The notes: a model not told the origin generated them from the letters alone. A DNA stretch of 64,000 bases from Candidatus Bathyarchaeia archaeon (GCA_038873195.1 JAVZEV010000001.1:524490-588489); one strand, 5' to 3'. Numbered from the stretch's first letter, positions 8,357 through 55,504 are shown. Made by a program: numbers and translations.

Positions 8357-9342
8357 GCCTTAATGTCTGAATAAATTTGAGAACAACAAAGCGAAGAAAA
8401 CACAGGTTCGTAACCCAACTTTTCGGCGAATCGTATCGCCTCTTCCGCGGGAAAGGCTATGGCGTCTACTCCAGCTTTTATGGCTAGAACATCCGTTTTC
8501 GCACGGTGCGCGCCTTTCGGTCTCATACAGCCCAGAACCAAAGGCGTTTCTGGAAACATCAACCTTGCAGTTAGTGTGACCTTTGCGATGTCTGCGGGTT
8601 CTGGCGGGTTTACTTTTTCCATTTTTGTTCCATGTATTGGCATGAACGCGATTATGACTAATGCGGAAGACTTGTAATTGGATATCATCTTTAAAGCGTG
8701 AAGTTCACCTTTCAACTCTCCATAATGAAGCCCAACAATCACGTGAGGCACGAAGACAATTCGCGCGTCATGTAACGCCTTTAATGAGTTTTCGTAATCC
8801 TCAACTGTCACGTTTAGGTTGTAGATTTCTTTTATTGTTTCGTCAGAGCCGATTATGTCGATAAGGGCGGCGTCCACTTTGGCGTCTTTCAGTTTTTTAG
8901 CTGTATCAAAGTTTATTATGCCTGTGTGAACAAAGACCGTCATGTCTAATTCACGTTTAATCTTTCCAATGGCGTCCACGAAATGTTCCAATGGCACAGA
9001 ACCGTCTGGTAGGCATCCTCCGCTTATTAGGCAGCCTAAAGCGCCTTCATTTTTGAGCTTAACGCACAATTCAAACAGTTTTTCAGGCGTGTTAGCTGGA
9101 TACATGGTTTCTAGAACTATTCCGCCGCAATGCTTACATTTTAATGCGCAGCCTTTTCCTGTCACGGAGATTGTTGGAAAGTCTTTCGGCGAAGAACAGT
9201 AATAGCTTGTCTTGTAATACATGAAGCTTGGCGCATAAAGGCGAATTTTTCTGTGCCTAGAGAAGAGGGTAGGCGTGTCTAACAGTTTCACAAGTTCGCT
9301 CTCATTCATTTGCCAAACAGTTTCAGGTGAAAGCGGAGTCAT
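8353..9342 (-). CDS. lipS1: Radical SAM protein, LipS1-like (archaeal lipoyl synthase subunit)
   Basis: A 329-residue radical SAM protein with the cluster motif CALKCKHC at Cys65, Cys69 and Cys72. Additional cysteines at Cys49, in LGCMRPKG, and in SSLCCSQ near the C-terminus could bind an auxiliary cluster. It resembles the uncharacterised biotin-synthase homologues of archaea, a group that includes LipS1 of Thermococcus; LipS1 and LipS2 together insert two sulfurs into octanoyl groups. A second radical-SAM gene resembling LipS2 lies just beyond the small regulator upstream, divergently transcribed. The family assignment is from memory of motifs and needs a search; a different sulfur-insertion role is possible. 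Confidence 0.6.
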   Translation of the reverse strand: MTPLSPETVWQMNESELVKLLDTPTLFSRHRKIRLYAPSFMYYKTSYYCSSPKDFPTISVTGKGCALKCKHCGGIVLETMYPANTPEKLFELCVKLKNEGALGCLISGGCLPDGSVPLEHFVDAIGKIKRELDMTVFVHTGIINFDTAKKLKDAKVDAALIDIIGSDETIKEIYNLNVTVEDYENSLKALHDARIVFVPHVIVGLHYGELKGELHALKMISNYKSSALVIIAFMPIHGTKMEKVNPPEPADIAKVTLTARLMFPETPLVLGCMRPKGAHRAKTDVLAIKAGVDAIAFPAEEAIRFAEKLGYEPVFSSLCCSQIYSDIKA

Positions 9343-9405
9343 TAATCTTCTTTTAAGAAACCCTTCACTGCCTGCTTAATAGTTTTCGTTTTTTTCTCGC
9401 CGATT

Positions 9406-9804
9406 CTATTTTTCTTCGTTTTCAACCTGTTTTGAAAGTGTTGGAACGACTTGCAAAGCCTCGTCCATCACTTTAATGGCGCTTGTTACTTTTTCGAGGT
9501 ATTTTTGGAAGCTGAGGGTTTTGAAAACGGTTGCGCCTCTTTCTGTGATTGCATACAGTGTTTTTGTGCCGGAAATGCGCTCTTGGACGAGTCCGTATTT
9601 GATTAGAGAGTTTAGACGCTGTTCGACAATGGTGCAGTCCATGTTGGTTTCGTAGGCTATGCTGTCGATGGTTAGGGGCTTCTTTATTATTGCGCCTAGA
9701 ATATCCTCGTAGGTTTCAAGTTTTGATTTTCGCATCTGCATACGCCACTGTCCTTGTTTTATGCGGTTTGGATAAATCATTTGTGAATTCAAAATCTTTA
9801 GCAA
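9406..9804 (-). CDS. Winged-helix regulator (HTH_45-like)
   Basis: A 132-residue protein whose core (about residues 25-95) is an archaeal winged helix: KPLTIDSIAYETNMDCTIVE forms the helix-turn-helix and LVQERISGTKTLYAITERGA the wing. The last 35 residues form a helix that may dimerise. A later start at residues 22 or 24 (Met-Gln-Met-Arg) is equally possible, because the first 20 residues look unconserved. It lies between the two putative lipoyl synthase genes and is a candidate local regulator; that role is inference. Confidence 0.65.
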   Translation of the reverse strand: MLKILNSQMIYPNRIKQGQWRMQMRKSKLETYEDILGAIIKKPLTIDSIAYETNMDCTIVEQRLNSLIKYGLVQERISGTKTLYAITERGATVFKTLSFQKYLEKVTSAIKVMDEALQVVPTLSKQVENEEK

Positions 9805-9872: not shown

Positions 9873-10895
9873 GTGACTGCCGCTGATGATCTGCCAAGGC
9901 GAATTCGTGTTTCGTTAGGTTCAGCCATTGTTCTCGGGCTTTTGAAGGGTAAGCTTGACGCTGCGCCAACAACCATTTATTTAATGACGTATCGAAAGGA
10001 TAAATGCAGTGCAAATTGCAGTTTTTGTCCGCAAGCTCGAGAAAGCCATGGTAGAGCAGACATGCTTTCTAGAGTTTCATGGCCTATTTTCTTAACTGGA
10101 AAAGTGCTTGATGGAATCGAGAGTGCCGTCGAAAGTGGCAAGGTCAAACGTGTTTGCGTCCAAGCCTTGAATTATCCACGCGTCTTTAATGATTTGGTAG
10201 CCATTGTAAAAGCGATACGTCGAAGAGTTAATGTTTCGATTTCAATTTCTTGTCAGCCTCTTAACAGTGACAACTTGAGGCGGTTAGCTGAGGCGGGTGT
10301 AGAAAGGATAGGGATTCCATTAGACGCTGCCACAGAGCAATTGTTTAACAAGGTTAAAGGAACGGGTGCTGGAGGACCTTACAATTGGAAACGACAGTTT
10401 GACTTGTTGAATGAGGCGGTTAATGTTTTTGGAAAGGGTAAGGTTAGCACACACTTGATTGTTGGGCTGGGAGAAAAAGAAAAGGAAATGGTTCAAGCCA
10501 TTCAAACATGCGTGGACATGGGTGTTTTGCCGGCGCTTTTTGCTTTTACGCCGATAAGCGGAACGGCTTTGGAAAACAAAGCTCAACCGCCAATTGAGAG
10601 ATACAGGCGAATCCAAATTGCTAGGCATTTAATAGTTCATGGGATAGCCAGATACGGGAATATGCGTTTTGATGAAGAAGGAAACATACAAGGTTTCGGT
10701 GTGGATGAGAAGGTGTTGTGGCAGATTGCCCAAACAGGCGAACCTTTCCTTACTTCTGGATGTCCAAGCTGTAACCGTCCCTATTATAACGAGAAGCCAA
10801 GCGGTCCCATGTTCAATTATCCTAAGGACTTAACGGAAGAAGAACTTGTCACTGTTTGGAAACAGTTAGGCTTACATGGGGCACAAAAGTATTGA
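9873..10895 (+). CDS. lipS2: Radical SAM protein, LipS2-like (archaeal lipoyl synthase subunit)
   Basis: A 340-residue radical SAM enzyme with the motif CSANCSFC at Cys45, Cys49 and Cys52. A C-terminal segment SGCPSCNRPYYNEKP adds a CxxC pair suited to an auxiliary iron-sulfur cluster. The overall layout matches archaeal biotin-synthase-related proteins that include Thermococcus LipS2, the partner of LipS1 in lipoyl synthesis. GTG start. The 3' end overlaps the polymerase start by 4 nt (TTGA). The paired occurrence with the LipS1-like gene 0.5 kb away supports the assignment; true biotin synthase is less likely because no other biotin gene is present. Confidence 0.6.
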   Translation: MTAADDLPRRIRVSLGSAIVLGLLKGKLDAAPTTIYLMTYRKDKCSANCSFCPQARESHGRADMLSRVSWPIFLTGKVLDGIESAVESGKVKRVCVQALNYPRVFNDLVAIVKAIRRRVNVSISISCQPLNSDNLRRLAEAGVERIGIPLDAATEQLFNKVKGTGAGGPYNWKRQFDLLNEAVNVFGKGKVSTHLIVGLGEKEKEMVQAIQTCVDMGVLPALFAFTPISGTALENKAQPPIERYRRIQIARHLIVHGIARYGNMRFDEEGNIQGFGVDEKVLWQIAQTGEPFLTSGCPSCNRPYYNEKPSGPMFNYPKDLTEEELVTVWKQLGLHGAQKY

Positions 10896-12787
10896 ACTCT
10901 TTTTATCTTCTCGACGCGACAGTGACGGAGACAAACGCGGTAAAGCTGAAGTTTCTTGATGCCTATGGAAAAATCAAGGAAGTCGTAGATGACAAATATA
11001 AACCATATTTCTTCATACCTTATCCGCCAACAAACGAAGATTTGGAAGTCATCAGATATTTTAGCGGCAACCTCCAAACTGCAGAAAAAATAGAACTTTT
11101 CAGTGGCGAAAAGAAGATTTTTGGGAAAGTTTTTTGGCTGAATCCGAAGATTGCCCTGAAAGCGGTTGGACGAATGCGGCAGGTTTGGGAGGGCGAAATT
11201 GAATTTTCAAGGTCGTATGTTTATGATAATGGTTTGGTTTTTGGAGCCCTTCATTCCGAAGAGCCGTTGAGGCTGTTTTTGGAAGTTTCCGCTGAAGCGA
11301 AGGAAAAGTTTGAGAAAATTTTCAGCGAAGTCAGAGCGAAAGATCCTTTGAAGTATGCGCAGATTTTCTATTGGTACACGCTTCTTTCTCAATCAATCCC
11401 GCACCTAAGCCCAGAGATTTTAGGCGTTAAGGAGATAGACCAAGAGAGGGTTTATTCTGCGTGGATGCTTTCTAGAATAGCGAATATTCCCTTGAATGAA
11501 GCGTTAACCAGTAGACGCGTTAGCGATTGGATAAAATCCATAATTTATACGCACTTGAGAAAGAACGGCATCCTCATTCCCACTTCGGAAGAGCTTAGAC
11601 GTGGAAAGCCCACGCACAGAGTTATTGGAGCATTAACTGTTTCGCCTACGCCCGGCGTTTACTTTAACACTGTTGTCTGCGATTTTGAGAGTCTATATCC
11701 CAGCTGTATTGACAGTTTCAATTTGTCCTACGAGACAGTGGATTGCGCACACACAGAATGCAGAGGTAACAAGATTTCAGAAGTTGACTATTACGTGTGC
11801 ACTAAACGGAGAGGTTTTTATTCTGTTCTCTTTGGCGCTTTAAAGGACTTGCGAATAAAACTGTTCAAGCCAGCCGCCAAGGACGCTTCATTGCCTGAAG
11901 AAGAGCGGAAAATGGCAAGCGTAGCAGCGAAGCTGTTGAAGCTTATTTTGGTTTCCAGTTACGGTGTAACCGTTCGCATTCACGGTGTTGCTTGTCCGCC
12001 GCTTGCTGATGCAATAACTGGATACAGTCGCTACTCGCTTAGGGAAACTTGGAAAATGGCAGAAGAAAAGGGTTTGAGACCGCTTTACGGCGACACAGAC
12101 AGCATCTTCTTGGATAACGCGTCAAACGAGCAAGTGGAATGGCTAATCAAAAAAGTAAAAGAAAGATTCAATTTGGATTTGGCTGTGGAAAAACGCTATA
12201 ACCTATGCGTTTTGCCTAAAGCAAAAAAAGCCTATTTCGGAATCTTGCCAGACGGAACGCCGGATATTAAAGGAGTCACTCCCATAAAGTCTAACGCTCC
12301 AAAGTTCATCAACATGGTTTTTCAACAATGCGTTAAGGCGCTTTCAACAGTTAAGAATCTTGAGGATTTTGAGCAAGCAAAGAAAGTGATTAAAGATATT
12401 GTTAAAAAGGCTGTTGATGATTTGAGGAGTAGACGGGTTACATTGGAAGATTTGGTTTATACGGTGAGGCTTTATTTTGACCCTAACGAGAAAGTTGCGG
12501 AGATGAAAACTGCCGCGCAGCAATACCAATGTGCACTGCAGCTGATAGATTCTGGCAAGAAACTTGAAAGGTGGGACACAGTTTCGTTTGTAAAAGTGAA
12601 ATCATTCAATTATAAAGGAAGAAACTTCACTGTAAAACCGGCTGAGTTTGTGAAAAGCTTAAATGAAATAAACGTTGAAGATTACATTCGAAACTTGCTA
12701 ACTGCTCTGAATCAAACTTTTCATCCGATGGGCATCAAATTGGAAACAGAAAAGGAAACGGAAATCTCAAAATGGCTGGGTTTTTAG
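10892..12787 (+). CDS. Family B DNA polymerase lacking the 3'-5' exonuclease domain
   Basis: A 631-residue family B polymerase. The N-terminal domain starts NSFYLLDATV as in archaeal PolB. Motif A (DFESLYPSCID) and motif C (YGDTDSIFL) are intact, with both catalytic Asp residues. Motif B reads KLILVSSYG, where the usual Asn is Val. Where the exonuclease domain with its DIE, NxxFD and YxxxD motifs should sit, the chain goes from a degenerate LFLEVS straight to the palm linker, so proofreading is absent and the protein is about 130 residues short. A Cys/His cluster (CAHTEC, then YYVC) lies between motifs A and B. The TTG at 10892 was chosen because it overlaps the previous stop and matches the PolB N-terminus. 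It may be an archaeal accessory or PolB2-like polymerase for repair or translesion synthesis. Confidence 0.85.
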   Translation: MNSFYLLDATVTETNAVKLKFLDAYGKIKEVVDDKYKPYFFIPYPPTNEDLEVIRYFSGNLQTAEKIELFSGEKKIFGKVFWLNPKIALKAVGRMRQVWEGEIEFSRSYVYDNGLVFGALHSEEPLRLFLEVSAEAKEKFEKIFSEVRAKDPLKYAQIFYWYTLLSQSIPHLSPEILGVKEIDQERVYSAWMLSRIANIPLNEALTSRRVSDWIKSIIYTHLRKNGILIPTSEELRRGKPTHRVIGALTVSPTPGVYFNTVVCDFESLYPSCIDSFNLSYETVDCAHTECRGNKISEVDYYVCTKRRGFYSVLFGALKDLRIKLFKPAAKDASLPEEERKMASVAAKLLKLILVSSYGVTVRIHGVACPPLADAITGYSRYSLRETWKMAEEKGLRPLYGDTDSIFLDNASNEQVEWLIKKVKERFNLDLAVEKRYNLCVLPKAKKAYFGILPDGTPDIKGVTPIKSNAPKFINMVFQQCVKALSTVKNLEDFEQAKKVIKDIVKKAVDDLRSRRVTLEDLVYTVRLYFDPNEKVAEMKTAAQQYQCALQLIDSGKKLERWDTVSFVKVKSFNYKGRNFTVKPAEFVKSLNEINVEDYIRNLLTALNQTFHPMGIKLETEKETEISKWLGF

Positions 12788-27257: not shown

Positions 27258-27270
27258 TTAAAATTTTTAT
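27258..27270. repeat. Left target-site duplication of the Cas1 element
   Basis: TTAAAATTTTTAT, identical to 31126-31138. With the preceding G it is 14 bp on both sides, close to the 14-15 bp duplications reported for casposons. Confidence 0.88.
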
Positions 27271-27299
27271 CCCAAACCCAAACCCAAAAAAATCGGAAA
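27271..27299 (+). repeat. Left terminal inverted repeat
   Basis: Three CCC blocks spaced by AAA, then AAAAAAATCGGAAA. The complement occurs at 31091-31119, matching over all 29 nt. Confidence 0.9.
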
Positions 27300-27374
27300 A
27301 CCTACGGTTTTCCATACCTTTCCCTTTTTGAAAACTTAAAGTTTAAAATTTGGTGTTAGGTGTTTAGGTTATTT

Positions 27375-27454
27375 GGGAATAGGACATGGGTTAAATGGGT
27401 TTCTGAAAACCTATTTCTCTTATCTCCAATTAGAGAAACCCGTGTTCTATTCCC
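27375..27454 (+). repeat. Long imperfect hairpin upstream of cas1
   Basis: GGGAATAGGACATGGGTT (27375-27392) is complementary to AACCCGTGTTCTATTCCC (27437-27454) with two G-U or mismatch positions, and the inner GGGTTTCT/AGAAACCC gives an alternative pairing. It lies between the left repeat and cas1 and could be a regulator, transposase-binding or replication site. Confidence 0.7.
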
Positions 27455-27503
27455 TTTAAATTGAAAAAGAAACTTTTATTAAAGCGGTATTTCCTAAATA
27501 ACA

Positions 27504-28556
27504 ATGGAGATAAGAGAAATGGGAAAAGAGAAAGCAGAAAAGATTATTCTGTCTGATTATGGATGTTTTTTGGGAATGCAGAAGGGATGTTACATTCTTA
27601 AAGACAGACATGGAAACATAAAGAAGTTTCCACAGTTAGAAGCTGAAATCGGAGAAGTTGTTTTGATGAGTGGAAACATGGTTTCTACGGGTGTTTTGGC
27701 GTCTTTTGGTTATTGGGATATTGACGTTTTGGTGGCTACTCGGAACGGTAAACCCGTTGCTATACTTAAAAGTTTAGATGATGACAGTCACGTAAAAACT
27801 AGAATTTGCCAGTATGAAGCTTTTAAAAATGGAAAAAGCATTGAAATAGCCAAAACAATTTTGAAAGCTAAAATTGAAGGTCAAAATCAAATACTTAAGA
27901 AATACGGGTTGAAACAGCATGATATTGTTGGTTTAAGAGAAAGGATTAATGCTTTAAAAAGCAAAAAAATAATGGAAATTCGCAGAAAATTAATAGGAAT
28001 TGAAGGAAAACACACCAAAAAATACTTCAACCAGATTTTTCAGTTGTTTCCAGAACCTTTAAGGGTTGAACGCAGACGGTCATATAAAGCGTATGACGGA
28101 ATTAACAACCTTTTCAATTTGGCTTATGAAATACTCTATTACAAATGTTATCAAGCATTAATTAAAACTCATTTAGAACCTTTTCTAGGGTTTGTTCACG
28201 CATTGGAATATTCAAAGCCGAGTTTAGTGTTGGATTTCCAAGAAGTTTACCGTTATTTGGTTGATGATTTTGTAATTGAGTATGCTCAAGACTTAAAGCT
28301 TAAAGACTTCATAAGCAAAACAGAAATTGTTTCGAGAGATAAGCTGGGAAAACGCATTTATCTTAACAATGCGAAAACTAAAGATTTTCTTGTTGAATTG
28401 CATGGTTATTTTAAACGTAAAGTAGATGTTCCTAGAATAAAACATGGTTTTAAATGTGAAATTGAAACGTTAATTTTTGAGGAGGCTATGCTTTTGGCTA
28501 AATATTTACGGAATGAACGGCAAAAATGGTTTCCTAGAATAGTCAACCTTTCGTGA
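27504..28556 (+). CDS. cas1: Cas1 family integrase (casposase-like)
   Basis: A 350-residue Cas1 homologue. The N-terminal beta domain (LSDYGCFLGMQKG, then VVLMSGNMVSTGVLASFGY and DVLVATRNGKPVA) is followed by the helical catalytic domain with Arg100-Gln103 and KAKIEGQNQIL. The metal-binding triad is present: Glu167 in GIEGKHTKKYF, His232 in GFVHAL and Glu247 in LVLDFQEVYR. There is no C-terminal helix-turn-helix extension of the kind seen in several casposases. A TATA-like TTTTATTAA about 28 nt before the ATG suggests a leaderless message. It probably integrates the element by joining 3'-OH ends to target DNA. No adaptation partner (Cas2) or array is near. Confidence 0.9.
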   Translation: MEIREMGKEKAEKIILSDYGCFLGMQKGCYILKDRHGNIKKFPQLEAEIGEVVLMSGNMVSTGVLASFGYWDIDVLVATRNGKPVAILKSLDDDSHVKTRICQYEAFKNGKSIEIAKTILKAKIEGQNQILKKYGLKQHDIVGLRERINALKSKKIMEIRRKLIGIEGKHTKKYFNQIFQLFPEPLRVERRRSYKAYDGINNLFNLAYEILYYKCYQALIKTHLEPFLGFVHALEYSKPSLVLDFQEVYRYLVDDFVIEYAQDLKLKDFISKTEIVSRDKLGKRIYLNNAKTKDFLVELHGYFKRKVDVPRIKHGFKCEIETLIFEEAMLLAKYLRNERQKWFPRIVNLS

Positions 28557-28694
28557 ATGAACGTTTACCAACCAACCAGCAACCAACCAATAAAATAGCC
28601 TGTTCTAAGACACTTTTAAACAACAAAACAAAAACTAAACGTTCAGAAATTCAAATAAAAACGGGAAAAAACGGAATAATCGGTTGGAATAGAG

Positions 28695-29138
28695 TTAAAC
28701 GTATTCTTTTTGTTGTTTTTCTTTGTCTTGTTCTTTGATTAACCCGAAAATTTTAGCCCAAGATTCCATTCCTTCAAAAAGCCATTTGACAAATGGGTTG
28801 TATTCTGGCGTGAAAATGTGTAGTGGTGTTGGTGGAAGTTTTACTTGCTGTTTTGGTTGTTGTGGTTGTTCTGGTTGCTGTTCTGAAACGAATTCTTGTT
28901 CTTGTTGTTCTGGTTTTGGTTGTGGTTCTGAAAAGAATTCTTGTTGCGGTTCTGGTGTAATTTGCTGTTCTGGTTCTTTGGTTTTTTCTATTGTTGAAGG
29001 TTTTTGTTTTTCTGGTTTTTCTAATGTGAACACGTGTTTGTTCTTGCATCTATAACGTTGTATTCCGTCTCTTTTTCCGTGTTTGATTGCTTTTTCTCCG
29101 CATTTTGGACATTCAACTATTAAGCATTCTTCGGTCAT
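28695..29138 (-). CDS. Zinc-ribbon protein with Gln/Pro/Glu-rich linker
   Basis: A 147-residue three-part protein. Residues 9-33 form a zinc ribbon (CPKCGEKAIKHGKRDGIQRY then Cys), similar to the N-terminal ribbon of IS1-type InsA proteins. Residues about 40-105 are a low-complexity Pro/Gln/Glu linker. The C-terminus (PFVKWLFEGMESWAKIFGLI) is an amphipathic aromatic helix that could touch a membrane or partner. Last gene of the leftward array inside the Cas1 element. It could help target or regulate the element; unproven. Confidence 0.65.
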   Translation of the reverse strand: MTEECLIVECPKCGEKAIKHGKRDGIQRYRCKNKHVFTLEKPEKQKPSTIEKTKEPEQQITPEPQQEFFSEPQPKPEQQEQEFVSEQQPEQPQQPKQQVKLPPTPLHIFTPEYNPFVKWLFEGMESWAKIFGLIKEQDKEKQQKEYV

Positions 29139-29237
29139 GTTTAATCATCTCTGTATATAGCCCTATTAGACTAGTCAAAAGCATGGGAATTTTGCCACAG
29201 TTGTGGCACAATTGGGTTGAAGTCTGAAAGGGAATCA

Positions 29238-29402
29238 TTAGATAATCACATTTTCTATTTTGTCTGCAATGATTGAAGCTTTTTCTCTGATTTCTTTGGG
29301 AATCCATATTCTTTTGGGAATGTTTGTTCCGTAAATGTCAGCTAGACAAAATGCTAAGATGTTTGTTTTATCGCATTTTCTAAGTTTTGTTTTTGCAACC
29401 AT
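29238..29402 (-). CDS. Small conserved-looking fragment, possibly the 3' part of an interrupted gene
   Basis: From an internal Met (29402) 54 residues are open, ending at TAA 29238. The frame is open upstream to 29514, where it meets the stop codon of the preceding ORF in the same frame. The intervening codons read naturally (WKIYLDNEGNYWLYAFSPDG) but offer no start codon. So this is either the downstream part of a gene split by a TAA, or a short protein starting at the Met. No family recognised. Part of the Cas1 element cargo. Confidence 0.45.
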   Translation of the reverse strand: MVAKTKLRKCDKTNILAFCLADIYGTNIPKRIWIPKEIREKASIIADKIENVII

Positions 29403-29513
29403 TTTTTTACCGTCTGGACTGAAAGCATACAGCCAATAATTGCCTTCGTTGTCTAAGTAGATTTTCCAGCGATGAACGTGTGTTAGGAAAAGAAGGTTTC
29501 TGTTTTTGCGGTA

Positions 29514-29777
29514 TTAGTATTCTGTTTTTATTGGTTTTGATGTTGTATAAACTGAAAGTTTTTTGCCTTCTGGCGTGTTGTGTAAAATTTCAACTTTTAG
29601 GTTCTCCGTAGTTGTTGTGTCTTCTTTGAATTCTGGCGGTTCTGGTTCTGGCATTAGGCTTTCGAGTTTCTCTTGTGTTTTTGCTTTTTTAATGTATTTG
29701 CTGAATTGTCTTCGGGTTATTTTTTTGTTGATGTAGTCTGTGAAGGGTGTTTCAGTTTTGGTTTTTTTCTTTGTCAT
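29514..29777 (-). CDS. Small basic/acidic protein of the Cas1 element
   Basis: An 87-residue protein from the Met at 29777 (MTKKKTKTETPF). It has a Lys-rich first half (INKKITRRQFSKYIKKAKTQ) and an acidic Pro-rich second half. No family recognised. The frame continues past the TAA for 92 more codons of sensible composition, so it may be the 5' part of a larger gene. A longer ORF to 29960 in this frame overlaps two neighbours and looks spurious. Translation appears coupled to the gene upstream by a 26-nt overlap. Confidence 0.5.
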   Translation of the reverse strand: MTKKKTKTETPFTDYINKKITRRQFSKYIKKAKTQEKLESLMPEPEPPEFKEDTTTTENLKVEILHNTPEGKKLSVYTTSKPIKTEY

Positions 29778-29898
29778 TTTGCAGTTCCTTCTTTTCCGTT
29801 TCATGTTTGAGAAGGCTTTTAGCCATGAGTTTTGCTGAAAGCTCAACGGCTTTTTCTCTGATTTTGTCTTTTCTGGTTGTTTCTGTTTTGTTAGACAA
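29752..29898 (-). CDS. 48-residue charged protein of the Cas1 element
   Basis: TTG start at 29898, overlapping the stop of the previous gene by 8 nt; it reads MSNKTETTRKDKIREKAVEL and ends QNDKEKNQN. It is probably a single amphipathic helix. Too short to assign; supported only by gene packing and composition. Confidence 0.4.
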   Translation of the reverse strand: MSNKTETTRKDKIREKAVELSAKLMAKSLLKHETEKKELQNDKEKNQN

Positions 29899-30187
29899 TG
29901 TAGGCTAGTCTCCTTTGGTTGTTTTGCTCGTAGTATTCGCTTGTCTGGATTAGTATGCACAGCATTTTTAGGAATTCTTTAGGTTTAAAACGGAAAATTG
30001 TTGTTTTGTTGACTTTCCAATAGATACATTTTTGGGTTAAGTAAACTTCCGTGTTACCTGCTTTTTGTTTTCCAATTATGTTTTTTGGTAGTTTTTTGAC
30101 TTTTTGAGTTTTAATTTTTATCGGTTTTTTGGGTGGAATTTGACCTTTATAGAAAAGTTTATAAAGGTTCTCTTGCTTACTTGTCAT
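29891..30187 (-). CDS. 98-residue basic protein of the Cas1 element
   Basis: A Lys-rich protein (PPKKPIKIKTQKVKKLPKN at residues 18-36) with a more ordered C-terminal half containing EVYLTQKCIYWKVNK and FRFKPKEFLKML. The charge suggests nucleic-acid contact. AAAGGA lies about 9 nt before the ATG. It overlaps the next small ORF by 8 nt. No family recognised. Confidence 0.55.
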   Translation of the reverse strand: MTSKQENLYKLFYKGQIPPKKPIKIKTQKVKKLPKNIIGKQKAGNTEVYLTQKCIYWKVNKTTIFRFKPKEFLKMLCILIQTSEYYEQNNQRRLAYIV

Positions 30188-30220
30188 TTGTCTATCATTC
30201 CTTTTCTTTTTGTAAAGTTT

Positions 30221-30331
30221 TTAGTAAGTCTCCGTTTTCTGTTTTGGAATGAAAAGGTTAAAGAGCCATTTGAAAAAGTCTGCGATTGCATTTAGTATCA
30301 TGCTGAAAAAATTAACTATTGCGTCGAACAT
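30221..30331 (-). CDS. 36-residue aromatic amphipathic peptide
   Basis: ATG at 30331 preceded by GGTGA with a 7-nt gap. The peptide (MFDAIVNFFSMILNAIADFF, then KWLFNLFIPKQ) is a single hydrophobic or amphipathic helix rich in Phe and Trp. Such peptides are common in archaeal viruses and plasmids, as membrane or virion components. Its KWLF segment recalls the C-terminal helix of the zinc-ribbon protein in the same element. It starts 12 nt after the 181-residue gene. Confidence 0.55.
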   Translation of the reverse strand: MFDAIVNFFSMILNAIADFFKWLFNLFIPKQKTETY

Positions 30332-30343
30332 TATGGTTTCACC

Positions 30344-30889
30344 TTAAATGGTTGTGTATCTTATTGCGAAGCGTTCTCTGATTGTTATGTCCAGCAGTAA
30401 TTTGTTATTGACGTTGTCGTAGTCAATTGTTACGCCATCTGTGTCTGGTTTAAAGTATAATTCTATGTAACCGTCTTCTTGAGCAAACACGAAAGGAACG
30501 TTTACGCCAAGCTTCAGCAAATCAACTTTGCTTCTGTCAGTCGGAGAAGTCTTATTCATATAGGCTGTTCTTTTTTTGGTTATTATTTGTTTGCGAGTTT
30601 TGGGTGCGTTGCTCAAGACTATTTTAACTTCTCCTTCTATGTCGTTGTTTGATGAATCATGCAGTTCTAGATGGAATAATCCGCCTATGTATTGGTCGTA
30701 TATTTGCGGTCTTTTTCCTACTGCTACGAGTGTTTGTTTAGGTATTTTGTATTCTCCGATTAGCGTGTAACCTTCATAATCAGCAAAACCTATTCCTTCA
30801 CCCATTTTGTCTTTTAAGCATTGCACATCTTCTTTTAGGAAGTCAAATTGGGTTAACGTTTTGCTGTATTCATTGTAATTCACTGGCAT
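30344..30889 (-). CDS. 181-residue beta-rich protein, first gene of the leftward array
   Basis: A protein with many predicted beta strands (GYTLIGEYKIPKQTLVAVG, GLFHLELHDSS, EGEVKIVLSN, DGYIELYFKP, KLLLDITIRE) and no membrane segment or catalytic motif. The strand-rich layout and position as the first and best-expressed gene would suit a virion or other structural protein, but no homologue is recognised. RBS GGTGAT precedes the ATG, and a TATA box lies about 70 nt upstream at the right end of the element. Confidence 0.6.
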   Translation of the reverse strand: MPVNYNEYSKTLTQFDFLKEDVQCLKDKMGEGIGFADYEGYTLIGEYKIPKQTLVAVGKRPQIYDQYIGGLFHLELHDSSNNDIEGEVKIVLSNAPKTRKQIITKKRTAYMNKTSPTDRSKVDLLKLGVNVPFVFAQEDGYIELYFKPDTDGVTIDYDNVNNKLLLDITIRERFAIRYTTI

Positions 30890-30958
30890 TTTTTATCACC
30901 TTTTATTTTTTGTTCTTTTTTCTAGGACTAAACGTCCCAATCTATAATTTGTCAATCA

Positions 30959-30969
30959 GATATATAAAC
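30959..30969 (-). promoter_or_regulatory. TATA box for the leftward array of the Cas1 element
   Basis: On the minus strand this reads TTTATATATCT. It lies between the right terminal repeat and the 181-residue gene, and predicts a leader of about 45-50 nt containing GGTGAT. Confidence 0.6.
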
Positions 30970-31090
30970 AATTCGATGTTTTTCGAACTATGGGAATTTC
31001 CCAATATTTTATTCGAAGTCATATCGTATAAGTCAAATGATACAACACATATCTCACAACTAAAACCAGAACCTCACCCTTCCCTAACCC

Positions 31091-31125
31091 TTTCCGATTT
31101 TTTTGGGTTTGGGTTTGGGTTTGGG
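31091..31125 (-). repeat. Right terminal inverted repeat
   Basis: The complement of the left repeat, but with four GGG blocks instead of three, so it is one 6-nt TTTGGG unit longer. Confidence 0.9.
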
Positions 31126-31138
31126 TTAAAATTTTTAT
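31126..31138. repeat. Right target-site duplication of the Cas1 element
   Basis: Identical 13 bp to 27258-27270. It overlaps the TATA-like TTTTTATATT of the downstream AbrB-like gene, so insertion regenerated that promoter. Confidence 0.88.
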
Positions 31139-55382: not shown

Positions 55383-55504
55383 TTTTCTTTCACCTTATTT
55401 TGACAGATTGAATTACAGTTTTTGTTGTTCTTCTTATATTAAATTTTCTTAAATCACGTGGGAAAGGCTGGAAAGTTAAACGTTTGCAAACTTGATAAAG
55501 AAAA

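Follow-up and report, generated by a model that had tools for sequence, protein, structure and literature searches.

A compact casposon-like Cas1 transposon without a PolB gene in a Bathyarchaeia genome

Cas1 is an enzyme known chiefly from CRISPR immunity. Casposons, the known Cas1 transposons, as defined carry a family B DNA polymerase gene (PolB) in every member, and the target duplications of the 2014 set range from 1 to 27 bp with a median of 15 (PMC4046053). The first casposons were reported to span ~8-20 kb (PMC9939771), and a casposase on its own integrates the ends, yielding 14-15 bp duplications (PMC6614799). A further, largely PolB-less group from hot-spring metagenomes was proposed in 2022 as casposase family 5; its Cas1 proteins have no C-terminal HTH, branch close to subtype I-A Cas1 and conserve the catalytic residues, and terminal inverted repeats (TIRs) are present in several contigs (PMC9755687). 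The text of that paper mentions neither target-site duplications nor an empty site and names no Bathyarchaeia (PMC9755687), and we found no open-access paper joining casposons with this class.

The window, by which we mean the whole 64,000-nucleotide stretch of Candidatus Bathyarchaeia archaeon DNA analysed here, contains a Cas1 element of 3,855 bp at positions 27271-31125. Its left TIR (27271..27299, plus strand) is composed of (CCCAAA)3 followed by AAAATCGGAAA and forms an exact 29-nt arm, whereas the right TIR (31091..31125, minus strand) matches it exactly over 29 bp, to 31119, and carries one further TTTGGG unit reaching 31125, giving four units on the right versus three on the left. Two copies of the 13-bp sequence TTAAAATTTTTAT directly adjoin the element, at 27258..27270 and 31126..31138. 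The insertion site is intergenic, with a V4R-domain gene on one side and, by a weak match, a MazE/AbrB-like gene on the other, and the element is present in single copy in the 1.63-Mb host genome. In a genome of the same genus (G001, locus L150), the corresponding locus aligns with 90% DNA identity straight across the site and displays one TTAAAATTTTTAT with a gapless junction. This uninterrupted locus with one target copy means that the element inserted there, into an intact intergenic site and with an exact 13-bp duplication. A previous reading of the sequence alone (hereafter the sequence-only reading) had given the target copies as 13-14 bp; since the base preceding TTAAAAT in the G001 empty site is A and not G, the duplication is 13 bp and the 14-bp option falls. 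Its other structural statements, namely TIRs of at least 29 nt enclosing a Cas1 gene, agree with the exact arms and the intact cas1, and the empty site that it had proposed to seek in related genomes bears out its description of a Cas1-carrying transposon.

The cas1 gene (27504..28556, plus strand) encodes a protein of 350 aa (Pfam Cas_Cas1, E=1.7e-48) in which E167, H232 and D244 are present, residues that are invariant across the family (alignment A1). The catalytic residues are conserved, and this Cas1 may integrate the element ends. Four genes follow on the minus strand: a 147-aa protein (28695..29138) with an IS1/IS1595-type N-terminal zinc-binding domain (NCBIfam NF050000, 2.3e-8, and NF048018, 1.3e-8, both scores above the cut-off), a 96-aa protein (29514..29804) with a 190-aa relative in the L032 element, a 98-aa protein (29891..30187) without a Pfam match and a 181-aa all-beta protein (30344..30889) with, by fold match only, a possible single-jelly-roll capsid-like fold. 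Among the ORFs of the element, Pfam gave no match to PolB, as the sequence-only reading had claimed, and Pfam and NCBIfam gave no match to any cas-type gene besides cas1; an Rfam search of the element returned nothing credible. The same reading had taken described casposons to be larger, and the 3.9 kb found here is indeed about half the ~8-20 kb of the first casposons (PMC9939771).

Between the left end and cas1, a strong hairpin (27375..27454, plus strand) occupies the cas1 leader (folding of 27375-27515: -46 kcal/mol, z -5.3), and 19 nt of its loop (27410..27428, plus strand) are complementary in sequence to the cas1 start region at 27505-27523. The same hairpin and cas1-start complementarity are found in L134 and L034 with sequences differing from those of the window, and L029 displays the complementarity alone within the stretch that was folded. 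This arrangement suggests a role for the hairpin in controlling cas1 expression.

Ten more cas1 elements bounded by exact 13-bp repeats were identified (L027, L030, L031, L032, L033, L034, L035, L134, L136 and L137), so that all 11 bounded elements have 13-bp duplications, the frame being ambiguous by at least one base in some relatives because their ends are repetitive. As ten relatives share this arrangement of ends and 13-bp duplications, the architecture goes beyond chance. The bounded elements measure 3.3-7.6 kb, including a 7.5-kb composite in L032, cas1 alone being shared by all of them; no PolB was found in any of the 11, and their longest ORF is about 354 aa. Some relatives encode other DNA-binding proteins. 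A small protein common to many relatives was considered as an archaeo-eukaryotic primase and rejected, with a Pfam score of only E=0.09 and a fold search without significant match. The ends consist of short tandem repeats, C-rich on the 5' side, whose unit is specific to the element (CCCAAA, CCCAA, CCT, CCTT, CA or CT). The targets follow the consensus ATTAAANTTTAAT and are AT-rich and mostly palindromic, with 42 of 66 pairs symmetric versus 25.8 expected from shuffles (p=5e-5). In L134 one target was used again in tandem, leaving three copies of ATAGAATTTCTAT. At four other cas1 loci (L028, L029, L133 and L135, which contains N runs) full left and right boundaries were not found. Elsewhere in the window, at 55438-55450 on the minus strand, lies AAGAAAATTTAAT, which corresponds to the target of the G024 element (L034) in uninterrupted form, the alignment being long on the right flank only. 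The conserved gene downstream of it is likewise a neighbour of the G024 element.

Full-length Cas1 relatives in related genomes share 44-57% identity with the window Cas1. When membership was defined as a match to alignment A1 at E<=1e-45, the family was present in 28 of the 257 genomes of the class. Among 398 genomes sampled across the phylum, the best of the matches listed from outside the class scored 153.6 bits versus >430 for full-length members, and these scores fall in the range of CRISPR-type Cas1 inside the class; the exception is G268, which carries a short Cas1-family fragment that is 57% identical to the window Cas1. Decayed cas1 copies are common within the class, since many family matches there are truncated or contain stop codons. 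C-terminal fragments spanning roughly residues 210-349 and frequently interrupted by stop codons occur in L137 and many genomes. Viral contigs searched with the window Cas1 and alignment A1 yielded no relatives. The host genome possesses its own CRISPR-associated cas1 on another contig, with only 28% identity to the Cas1 of the element; at locus L041 (G000:C2:5000-24999) a CRISPR array lies beside this separate cas1, at 8495-9690 and 10715-11764, in contrast to a 2025 survey of 23 complete Bathyarchaeota genomes, which reports them free of CRISPR-cas loci (PMC12669027).

A maximum-likelihood tree was built from 53 Cas1 proteins, the casposases being represented by Methanosarcina mazei 6OPM and six sequences from whole genomes, one of them from G060, of the same order. 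The present family forms one clade on a long branch (support 100/100), outside the casposase clade (99/97). It lies nearer to the bulk of CRISPR Cas1 than to the casposases with a support of only 90/79, and a topology forcing it together with the casposases was not rejected (AU p=0.16). Among casposon traits, the element has the TIRs (29 bp exact in the window element, with matched ends in relatives) and the target duplication (13 bp, inside the published 1-27 bp range) but no family B DNA polymerase gene, and the tree, with its separate clade and the union not rejected, leaves room for the term casposon proposed in the sequence-only reading. We call it a casposon-like Cas1 transposon rather than a proven casposon. 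Genome G060 holds, besides an element of the present family, a Methanosarcina-type casposase (L196, G060:C27:12232-13098) with 38% identity to 6OPM.

Abutting elements were searched for with a 17-mer junction probe, GGATTAAANTTTAATCC, comprising right end, target and left end, with at most one mismatch and the reversed probe as control. Within the class, 49 of the 257 genomes contain junctions, up to 30 per genome and 207 places in total, versus 4 for the control. Outside it, G268 aside, about 320 genomes gave 19 junction places versus 24 control places; G268 contains 10 and is the only out-of-class genome with a junction cluster, as well as the one with the Cas1-family fragment. The fetched regions, which were picked using the same pattern, hold 95 junction sites versus 1 in reversed sequences. 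Segments between sites measure 0.3-6.8 kb and carry ordinary genes, among them those for proteasome alpha, pyrophosphatase, M55 peptidase, an MFS transporter and lysine aminomutase. In L032, a 7.5-kb block made up of the cas1 element and three further units lies between two copies of the rare 13-mer GGTAAAGTTTTAT and has matching ends, as if the block had moved whole; for one of its units, a genome from another family holds a counterpart with 85% identity. Segments of about 130-200 bp at the termini occur repeatedly, joined to different cargo. One of them, about 190 bp counted from the 13-mer (L113 444-640 and 2433-2625, L128 1134-1334, L119 7701-7902), has internal inverted repeats, GAGGGGTAA...TTACCCCTC. 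In G268, a 433-bp unit (L230 202-660) has identical copies of GTTAAAATTTAAT on both sides and unlike ends, CA-type on the left and CCCAAA-type on the right.

Adjacent 13-mers in the clusters show no excess of identity (5/37 versus 3.3 by chance) and left and right end types pair at random (4/19 matched versus 3.5 expected), and a strict integron-like cassette array was rejected on these grounds. Where a rare 13-mer occurs in identical copies, these mostly flank ends that match, in some cases with other units in between (L032, L074, L132), which points to nested and abutting transposon insertions. Such insertion accounts for much of the clusters, though not for differing neighbour sites or mixed end types, and mobility of each individual segment between two sites goes beyond what the clusters show. 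Several junction-rich genomes, most of them draft assemblies, contain only Cas1 fragments or CRISPR-type Cas1.

We conclude that 27271-31125 is very probably a compact DNA transposon that its own Cas1 mobilises. The empty site, the eleven bounded cas1 elements, the invariant E/H/D residues, the palindromic target and the tandem re-use of the L134 target speak for this, as does the coincidence in G268 of the out-of-class junction cluster with the Cas1-family fragment. Against it stand the chance-level identity of adjacent 13-mers and the random end pairing, which simple insertion does not explain, and the junction-rich genomes with only Cas1 fragments or CRISPR-type Cas1. Cas1-driven mobility is read here from sequence; transposition and an excised form are not among our observations. 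In the mechanism we propose, a Cas1 multimer would hold both ends, whose 3' strands would be the G-rich repeats (TTTGGG-3'), and would join both 3' ends to opposite target strands 13 bp apart, by analogy with casposases at 14-15 bp, host repair then filling the gaps. Cas1 would act alone, and on the mostly symmetric AT-rich target ATTAAANTTTAAT, where the characterised casposase uses an asymmetric one made up of leader and repeat. As the element has no polymerase, DNA synthesis is presumably supplied by the host, whose replication the sequence-only reading had the element borrow. Non-autonomous units that bear cargo and have this type of end are probably moved by this machinery as well, inserting beside and inside one another.

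Several other explanations were weighed. That the gene is a stranded CRISPR adaptation gene lying between chance repeats would agree with the weak (90/79) proximity of the family to CRISPR Cas1, but it is contradicted by the G001 empty site and the ten further bounded elements and is scarcely credible. A CRISPR array is moreover absent from the window and from the loci of 14 relatives. Neither outcome that the sequence-only reading had named as counter-evidence appeared, since an empty site exists, the window has no array and the host CRISPR cas1 is a distant homologue. It is also very improbable that Cas1 is a passenger on an element moved by another host or element enzyme: the transposase-type zinc-binding domain of the window element and the other DNA-binding proteins of some relatives could be taken in that sense, but searches of the element revealed no catalytic domain of a recombinase or transposase, and the 11 bounded elements have only cas1 in common.

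An integrated virus-like or satellite element, using Cas1 as integrase and encoding a single-jelly-roll capsid protein, is somewhat less remote but still unlikely. It would account for the outcome of the PDB fold search, in which the top 17 matches to the 181-aa protein are all capsid proteins of HCIV-1, HHIV-2, SH1 and P23-77, and the protein may tentatively, as a lead only, be modelled as folding like these. However, the structure model is weak (pLDDT 56, built from two sequences), hhalign against the VP7/VP16 and VP4 capsid families gave no match, the only homologue in 257 genomes is that of the L034 element (43% identity), the window element has no packaging ATPase and there was no match in phages or viral contigs. 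Whether the element belongs to the proposed PolB-poor casposon family 5 (PMC9755687), a family already named, is in our estimate evenly balanced; membership would be compatible with the Cas1 mechanism and would affect filing only. By description, the present family loosely fits each trait given for family 5, but that paper's text includes neither target duplications nor Bathyarchaeia.

Returning to the Cas1-driven transposon, the present family appears to represent widespread, little-described elements without the DNA polymerase typical of casposons. The sequence-only reading had proposed a reduced or new casposon type, which must be tempered: given family 5, absence of a polymerase alone is not new (PMC9755687). 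The palindromic target, the repeat-type ends and the clusters of cargo-bearing units abutting at a 13-mer are apparently unreported. It is possible, if rather doubtful, that the family arose independently of casposases as a second lineage of Cas1 transposons and is a general gene mobiliser in Bathyarchaeia, with autonomous elements of 3-8 kb, some with a capsid gene, and many non-autonomous units of cellular genes, inserted next to and within one another at a 13-bp palindrome. With its clean boundaries, defined target and known empty site, this minimal Cas1 transposon offers a system for examining how Cas1 alone moves DNA when PolB and Cas2 are absent. The position of the family among Cas1 proteins is relevant to the question whether CRISPR adaptation arose from transposons once or Cas1 shifted repeatedly between immunity and transposition, and the clusters of junctions suggest a path by which genes are exchanged in this uncultured class of archaea.

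The present protein agrees with the Cas1 of type I and III CRISPR-Cas systems in fold, in its catalytic triad and in its length of about 350 aa, but its gene has no array, Cas2 or Cas4 nearby, is flanked by inverted repeats and target duplications and belongs to its own 100/100 clade. IS-type cut-and-paste transposons and integron cassette arrays likewise comprise small autonomous elements, non-autonomous cargo-bearing derivatives and clustered units; the present elements differ in having no DDE/DEDD transposase or tyrosine integrase, and their clusters look nested and abutting, unlike the ordered arrays of integrons. The likeness to Halopanivirales (SH1, HHIV-2, HCIV-1, P23-77) lies in the predicted fold of the 181-aa protein, which has no detectable sequence similarity to their single-jelly-roll capsid proteins and stands in an element without other virion genes. 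With family 5 the present family shares, by description only, being mostly PolB-less, the missing C-terminal HTH, TIRs, proximity to I-A Cas1 and an intact active site. As in casposons of families 1-4 (PMC4046053; Thaumarchaeota, PMC6563490), a Cas1 homologue is the sole candidate integrase and TIRs, target duplications and tandem insertions at one site occur, whereas the present elements, at 3.3-7.6 kb, have no PolB, HNH or Cas4, their ends are element-specific short tandem repeats and their Cas1 lies outside the casposase clade. Their target is 13 bp, symmetric and AT-rich, in contrast to the 14-15 bp used by the A. boonei casposon beside an asymmetric leader motif (PMC6614799).
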